Origin: an uncultured Planctomycetaceae bacterium | GTDB lineage: Bacteria > Planctomycetota > Planctomycetia > Planctomycetales > Planctomycetaceae | DNA: 34,034 nt | Direction of reading: 5' to 3' | NCBI GenBank assembly: GCA_903896675.1 | Contig: CAITYU010000408.1 | Span: 1-34,034 of the forward strand | Shown here: piece by piece, positions 33,248 through 34,034 of the stretch | How positions within the stretch are numbered: position 1 is the stretch's first letter | How the letters are laid out: every line of letters begins with the position of its first letter | The notes under the pieces: generated by a model | The model's input: only the letters and a program-made list of their open reading frames with translations | Told to the model about the DNA's origin: nothing | The model's database searches: none | Position numbers and translations under genes: made by a program

Positions 33248-34034
33248 ATGATGTTCCCGAAAGCCGTTGCAATGGCTCGCATCAACCGTCGGCTGGTATT
33301 GTCTGAGACTGAAATTCAGGTGGTGCACTGCACTAATCGGTGCGTTCGGCGTGCGAACCTGTGCGGCATAGATCCCGTCACGGGGCGGGATTGTGAGCAT
33401 CGCAGGCAGTGGATCCGGGACAGGCTTGCCTTTCTTGCCGGGATTTTTGCAGTCGATGTTTTGGCCTTTTCAGTAACGGGCAATCAATTCCACGTTGTAC
33501 TCCGCAGCAGACCTGACGTGGCTCGTGAATGGAGTAACGAAGAGGTAGCAATTCGCTGGTGGCAACTGTTTCCGCAGCGCCGCACAAGGGAAGGTAAAGC
33601 GGCCGAACCCGCAGAGATGGATTTGCAGGTCCTCGTTGCCCGTTCGCAGGAACTGAGGCTTCGCTTTTCCAGTATCTCGTGGTTCATGCGCTGTGTGTCC
33701 GAGGTCATCGCTCGATGGGCAAACGCAGAAGATCAGTGCACTGGTCGTTTCTGGGAAGGTCGATTCAAATCGACACTGCTTGAAGACAATGCGGCTGTCC
33801 TCGGGGGAATGATCTTCGTTGACTTGAATGGAGTTCAGGCCTCGGAGACATCAATTGTTGAAGATTCTCATTGCACGAGTCTTCGTGCGCGATTACAGGA
33901 CCTTGCGGCTGTTCCGCCTGAGGTTAGTGGGGCAAAGGCAGAATTATTTGCAGCGACCGGGGAGCAGTCAGGTTGGCTGTCGCCGATGAAATGTCAGGAA
34001 GTGGACGAACACAGTTCAGGCACATGTTCCACGA
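33248..34034 (+). CDS. IS200/RAYT-like protein with degenerate active site (3' end outside window)
   Basis: The frame is open from 33248 to the window end (262 residues, no stop). GGAGG lies at 33228-33232; the ATGs at 33248, 33251 and 33272 are all possible starts. [15 protein letters not shown] near the N-terminus, [35 protein letters not shown], and [13 protein letters not shown] with FVDLN match the abundant planctomycete transposase-IS200-like (REP-associated) family. The HUH metal motif expected in NHxHVVLR is here N-Q80-F-H82-VVLR, so the first His is lost, and no tyrosine occurs anywhere in the visible sequence. It is therefore unlikely to be a working Y1 nuclease; it may be decaying or domesticated. 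Confidence 0.82.
   Translation, partial: [262 protein letters not shown]

Follow-up and report, generated by a model that had tools for sequence, protein, structure and literature searches.

The window, by which we mean the whole 34,034-nucleotide stretch of DNA that was analysed, is the entire contig C408 of a planctomycete draft genome (G000). At its downstream end recA is followed by a gene for a RAYT-like Y1 transposase that has lost its catalytic residues, referred to below as the dead RAYT. The locus contains the following features:

32036..33121, plus strand: recA, identified from its open reading frame and the RecA sequence, directly upstream of the dead RAYT and on the same strand
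33144..33165, no strand assigned: ACTCGGGCTGAGAAGCCCGAGT, a strong hairpin just past recA, between recA and the dead RAYT
33248..34034, plus strand: dead RAYT-like Y1 transposase gene, starting at 33248 or at the in-frame ATG at 33272, with about 100 C-terminal amino acids lying past the contig end
33482-33493, plus strand: former HUH motif N-Q-F-H (codons AAT CAA TTC CAC), the first His replaced by Gln
33677..33769, plus strand: retained block SWFMRC...GRFWEGRFK (residues 136-166), with very few changes within the dead clade and similar to that of live members
33815-33817, plus strand: former catalytic Tyr, now Phe (TTC), in the column of Y115 of E. coli RayT
33827..33829, plus strand: Asn of the third metal ligand, kept in the window and equivalent to E. 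coli N119; the next residue is Gly, not Pro, and the Asn is Leu in G007

The dead RAYT is chromosomal and present as one copy, at the recA locus. Its reading frame (33248 to beyond 34034, plus strand) ran without a stop up to the contig end, and the two complete orthologues (genomes G008 and G007) were open over 348 and 355 codons, in agreement with the first-pass annotation, which had called the frame intact. Elsewhere in the window, a tandem heptamer repeat (ACTGAAA/ACTGATA, about 11 copies) was seen at 5095-5170, and an imperfect duplication of about 239 bp with palindromic stems (CCCGCTG...CAGCGGG) at 22719-23155.

In enzymes of this type two His residues and N119 (E. coli numbering) bind the metal, and the Tyr catalyses (PMC6006769). 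The corresponding columns were located by several alignments. In the tree alignment, 25 of 26 homologues, all but L025, carried H-x-H and Tyr in the columns occupied by Q-F-H and Phe in the window; in a larger set, 40 of 41 other distinct homologues had both His residues, the Tyr and the Asn that serves as third metal ligand. The P-E-H-M-H and Y115-I-Y-I-N119-P motifs of E. coli RayT (L098) fell in the HUH and Tyr columns of the window, with hhalign agreeing on the Tyr part, and N-H-L-H of the family profile aligned, weakly, with D-H-V-H of the ISDra2 transposase. Placement of the site is secure given the homologue columns, the E. coli RayT alignment and the weak ISDra2 profile match; the HUH site does not lie elsewhere, and the broken motif originally reported as Q-F-H was confirmed. 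As judged from these motif columns and the published residue roles, the window protein lacks the first metal-binding His and the nucleophile. The change at the catalytic position is exactly Tyr to Phe, as in Y115F, a catalytic mutant of E. coli TnpAREP (PMC8266576).

The window and G008 copies share the same residues at these positions (Q-F-H, Phe, and a retained Asn). The G007 copy reads Q-L-T, with His in place of the Tyr and Leu in place of the Asn, and so retains neither His, nor the Tyr, nor the third metal ligand. As a separate observation, a long RAYT homologue from another planctomycete family (L025, G037:C58, reading frame from 1207) has an intact HLH motif, Phe for Tyr, and no Asn ligand (I-D-L-V-P).

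The visible part of the window protein comprises 262 residues and contains no Tyr, as first noted. The count is correct, but it is partly an effect of truncation, as the complete G008 orthologue has three Tyr, at positions 66, 272 and 294; the substantive result is that the catalytic Tyr and the HUH motif have been lost. The missing C-terminus could be read from the orthologues, and Y272 was considered as a replacement catalytic residue. It was rejected, since this Tyr in the C-terminal domain is invariant and non-catalytic, and intact members have it as well; no other candidate was found in the C-terminus of the orthologues.

The window reading frame belongs to a long RAYT-like planctomycete Y1 family of about 350 amino acids. 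Pfam and NCBIfam gave no match for the window protein, and neither database detected a Y1 transposase in the dead copies. Live relatives matched NF047646 (REP-associated tyrosine transposase) at E values of 6e-7 to 4e-10, below the curated cut-off, and PF01797 weakly, so general annotation can miss the family. It is multi-copy, with up to 44 matches per genome (e.g. G009 and G001), yet PF01797 and NF047646 miss it at cut-off.

The same gene was found immediately downstream of recA in two other, independently assembled genomes: G008 (SXXK01000462.1, L034; 84% identity) and G007 (CAIOKE010000173.1, L035; 57% identity). Agreement between these separate assemblies led us to reject sequencing or assembly error as the source of the losses. 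The order and strand of recA and the dead RAYT were constant in all three carriers, with a gap of about 126-154 bp, and in G008 and G007 the gene order was pilus assembly gene, recA, dead RAYT, peptidyl-prolyl isomerase. A recA was located in 14 further genus genomes, none of which had a dead RAYT beside it. RecA identity was 96-97% among the three carriers, and at most 88% in other genus members.

In a maximum-likelihood tree the three dead copies formed one clade (100/100 support), nested among live copies (100/98). The stem branch of this clade was long (0.91), and the clade evolves faster than the live copies; the stem shows a fast phase, which could include relaxed constraint. When 170 genomes of the family were searched, relatives proved widespread, but none stood out as an additional close relative of the dead clade; intactness was read for those relatives fetched as loci. 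Viral contigs yielded no relatives. Loss of the Tyr and the first His throughout the subfamily, a check suggested at first pass, was seen within the three-copy clade and did not extend to the other homologues, nearly all of them intact. Since the losses are common to the carriers, in one recA-adjacent clade, catalysis was lost before the three species split. A single insertion, together with one loss of the first His in the ancestor, accounts for all three copies; G007 additionally lost the second His and the Asn, and the Tyr disappeared ahead of the split or at about that time.

Silent and replacement substitutions were compared between the window and G008, giving dN = 0.090, dS = 0.695 and dN/dS = 0.13 (bootstrap 95% CI 0.08-0.19), with a low ratio in each 50-codon stretch. 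For the live pair L006/L008, dN/dS was 0.085 (CI 0.06-0.12). Because both copies carry the same losses, the divergence of the window from G008 postdates the loss of catalysis. The dead RAYT has a dS (about 0.70) similar to the 0.751 measured for recA in these genomes, indicating vertical descent. In neutral simulations, 0 of 500 copies remained free of stops, at either divergence tried. The protein has been held by purifying selection since catalysis was lost. Vertical inheritance at a fixed place (in three genomes) and purifying selection, both observed for this gene, are marks of a domesticated transposase, and those of a pseudogene, frame breaks or a dN/dS near 1, were not found. Very recent decay, offered in the first-pass annotation as one of two explanations, is excluded by the dN/dS and by losses common to three species. 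The other, selection for a non-nuclease role, is supported by this ratio and by losses shared by orthologues of 84% and 57% identity.

Across 40 live copies, 86 positions were conserved to at least 90%, and all dead copies kept 62 of them. Invariant residues remained in the N-terminal region and in the SWFMRC...GRFWEGRFK block, while both active-site motifs were lost. The block is near-identical in the three dead copies although silent sites are saturated. Losses at conserved positions clustered at 71-74 (HUH) and 178-193 (Tyr helix), and in some stretches of the C-terminal domain; there the two complete dead copies have the derived residues D261, C263, R273, A276 and C282 in common. An AlphaFold2 model built from three sequences had a pLDDT of 36 and was set aside. 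By motif, the W-E pair of the retained block matches W94-Q95 in E. coli RayT, with the local alignment uncertain; Q95 is among the residues touching the GTAG motif, or REP tetranucleotide (PMC8266576). The retention pattern would fit selection for binding rather than cutting. Because the retained block holds this W-E/Q motif, whose E. coli counterpart contacts the REP tetranucleotide, DNA binding appears the likeliest activity of the dead RAYT, and the bound DNA might be a hairpin.

In all three carriers recA and the dead RAYT are separated by a strong hairpin, but hairpins also follow recA in most genus members that lack the dead RAYT, several of these with T tracts. A RAYT-specific hairpin was rejected on this ground. 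The simplest reading, given similar hairpins in most members without the RAYT, is that ACTCGGGCTGAGAAGCCCGAGT is most likely a recA terminator or 3′ stem; it is possibly a decayed REP. The stem core of the recA-side hairpin in G000 and G008 (CTCGGGC/GCCCGAG) is the stem core of a typical GTAG REP family, GTAGCTCGGGCTTTCCAGCCCGAG. About 100 copies of this REP occur in G008 and 3 in G000, with single variant copies in G004 and G015, and none in the remaining 14 genus genomes; G007 has none. The copies in G008 are partly clustered, about 40-200 bp apart (e.g. L099 C261:1-700, L100 and L112). The recA-side hairpins lack the GTAG foot, and that of G007 has an unrelated stem; its membership of a repeat family was rejected, as 16 loose matches came down to essentially one true copy.

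Among the G008 RAYT genes examined, only the dead one adjoins a GTAGCTCGGGCTTTCCAGCCCGAG-type stem. The live copies in G008 have no hairpins of this kind beside them, and spread of the GTAG REPs by long-type RAYTs was rejected for this reason; more generally, no REP or hairpin recurred consistently next to live long-type copies. No short GTAG-type RAYT was found in G008, G000 or G007 with the G015 protein as query (a search with no positive control), and none scored over the cut-off by profile. A typical REPtron was seen in G015 (L129, G015:C694, about 950-1965), in which a 248-aa short RAYT lies between GTAG hairpins of stem types GTAGCTTGG.. and GTAGGATGGGC... The shared REP stem core may be taken as a weak lead to a possible hairpin target.

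The locus is probably best explained by a domesticated, nuclease-dead RAYT kept under purifying selection beside recA and acting by DNA binding, possibly to hairpins. The ancestor of a small planctomycete clade would have received a single insertion of an active long-type RAYT on the downstream side of recA, and this copy would then have lost the first metal-binding His and the catalytic Tyr. Since then it would have descended vertically together with recA, as an ordinary gene of the cell that purifying selection maintains. Its protein may bind single-stranded DNA or a DNA hairpin, a REP-like stem-loop being a candidate target, and could compete with active RAYTs or repress them without itself cutting, or could bind DNA structures as a partner in DNA metabolism linked to recA. 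The narrower proposal of a Y1/HUH transposase, nuclease-dead and selected, turned into a pure DNA-hairpin binder acting together with RecA or keeping REP elements under control, is put forward tentatively.

A decaying pseudogene, in which the element died recently and the frame stayed open by chance, would account for the lost catalytic residues and for a clade faster than the live copies with so long a stem branch. It is extremely improbable in view of a loss common to three species, two complete copies with no stop over their whole length, the confidence interval on dN/dS and the failure of any simulated copy to stay open. A surviving enzyme with a re-arranged active site, in which, for example, another Tyr or residue nicks the DNA or one metal ligand comes from elsewhere, draws on the second His and Asn ligand kept in the window and G008, and on Y272, still present in the C-terminal domain of both complete copies. 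The G007 copy (Q, T, H, L), however, lost all of the His, Tyr and Asn residues yet is equally intact, and the invariance of Y272 in live members speaks against a replacement; we regard this reading as very unlikely.

The two further readings are specific forms of the domesticated, DNA-binding RAYT. The protein might be a dominant-negative regulator, which would bind the same DNA as active long-type RAYTs, or pair with them, and so restrain them. Live long-type copies are present in all three carrier genomes, the conserved non-catalytic blocks are retained, and a nuclease-dead relative turned regulator is known, by analogy, for TnpB (TldR, PMC13418256). The copy numbers do not favour such restraint: other long-RAYT matches number 2-8 in carriers, inside the non-carrier range of 2-44, and over-cut-off short RAYTs are absent in 3/3 carriers against 6/15 non-carriers, a difference that is not significant (about 0.10). 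This form seems possible but doubtful. A host DNA-structure binder working with RecA, in recombination, repair or DNA uptake, and co-inherited for that function, would be consistent with the constant arrangement beside recA in three genomes and with the pilus assembly genes on the opposite side of recA. Against it, the strong hairpin stands between the two genes, leaving a shared transcript no more than putative, and adjacency may merely record the insertion site; we consider it rather unlikely.

RAYTs are well-known domesticated bacterial transposases whose role for the host is difficult to pin down, partly since binding and cutting are hard to separate. If the preferred reading is true, a natural RAYT without cutting has nonetheless been selected, and binding alone would be worth keeping. 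The dead RAYT would then serve as a clean test protein, with its intact close relatives as controls. The literature searched, which did not include the main paper on RAYT domestication (doi 10.1093/gbe/evx146), contained no earlier report of a selected nuclease-dead RAYT.

Among known systems, family descent is shared with RAYT/TnpAREP (NF047646; class 2 Y---NP of PMC6006769), and live relatives carry N-H-x-H and Y-V-D-L-N-P in the right columns. The dead copies differ in lacking the HUH motif and Tyr, and in their length of about 350 aa instead of about 165-250, with an extra conserved C-terminal domain. The HUH region also aligns, weakly, to ISDra2 TnpA of the IS200/IS605 group (ISDra2, IS608); unlike those transposases, the dead RAYT lacks the catalytic residues, is vertically inherited, and had no IS ends that could be seen. 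With TldR, the nuclease-dead TnpB repressors, only a principle is held in common, in that catalysis was lost and nucleic-acid binding kept (PMC13418256), a binding that is predicted for the dead RAYT; TldR is an unrelated protein, RNA-guided and with a known function. Published aligned RAYTs and TIRYTs keep both the Tyr and HUH (PMC3733652; PMC8266576), the sequences in PMC6006769 having been selected for possessing both motifs. In the dead RAYT, by contrast, both were lost under selection.
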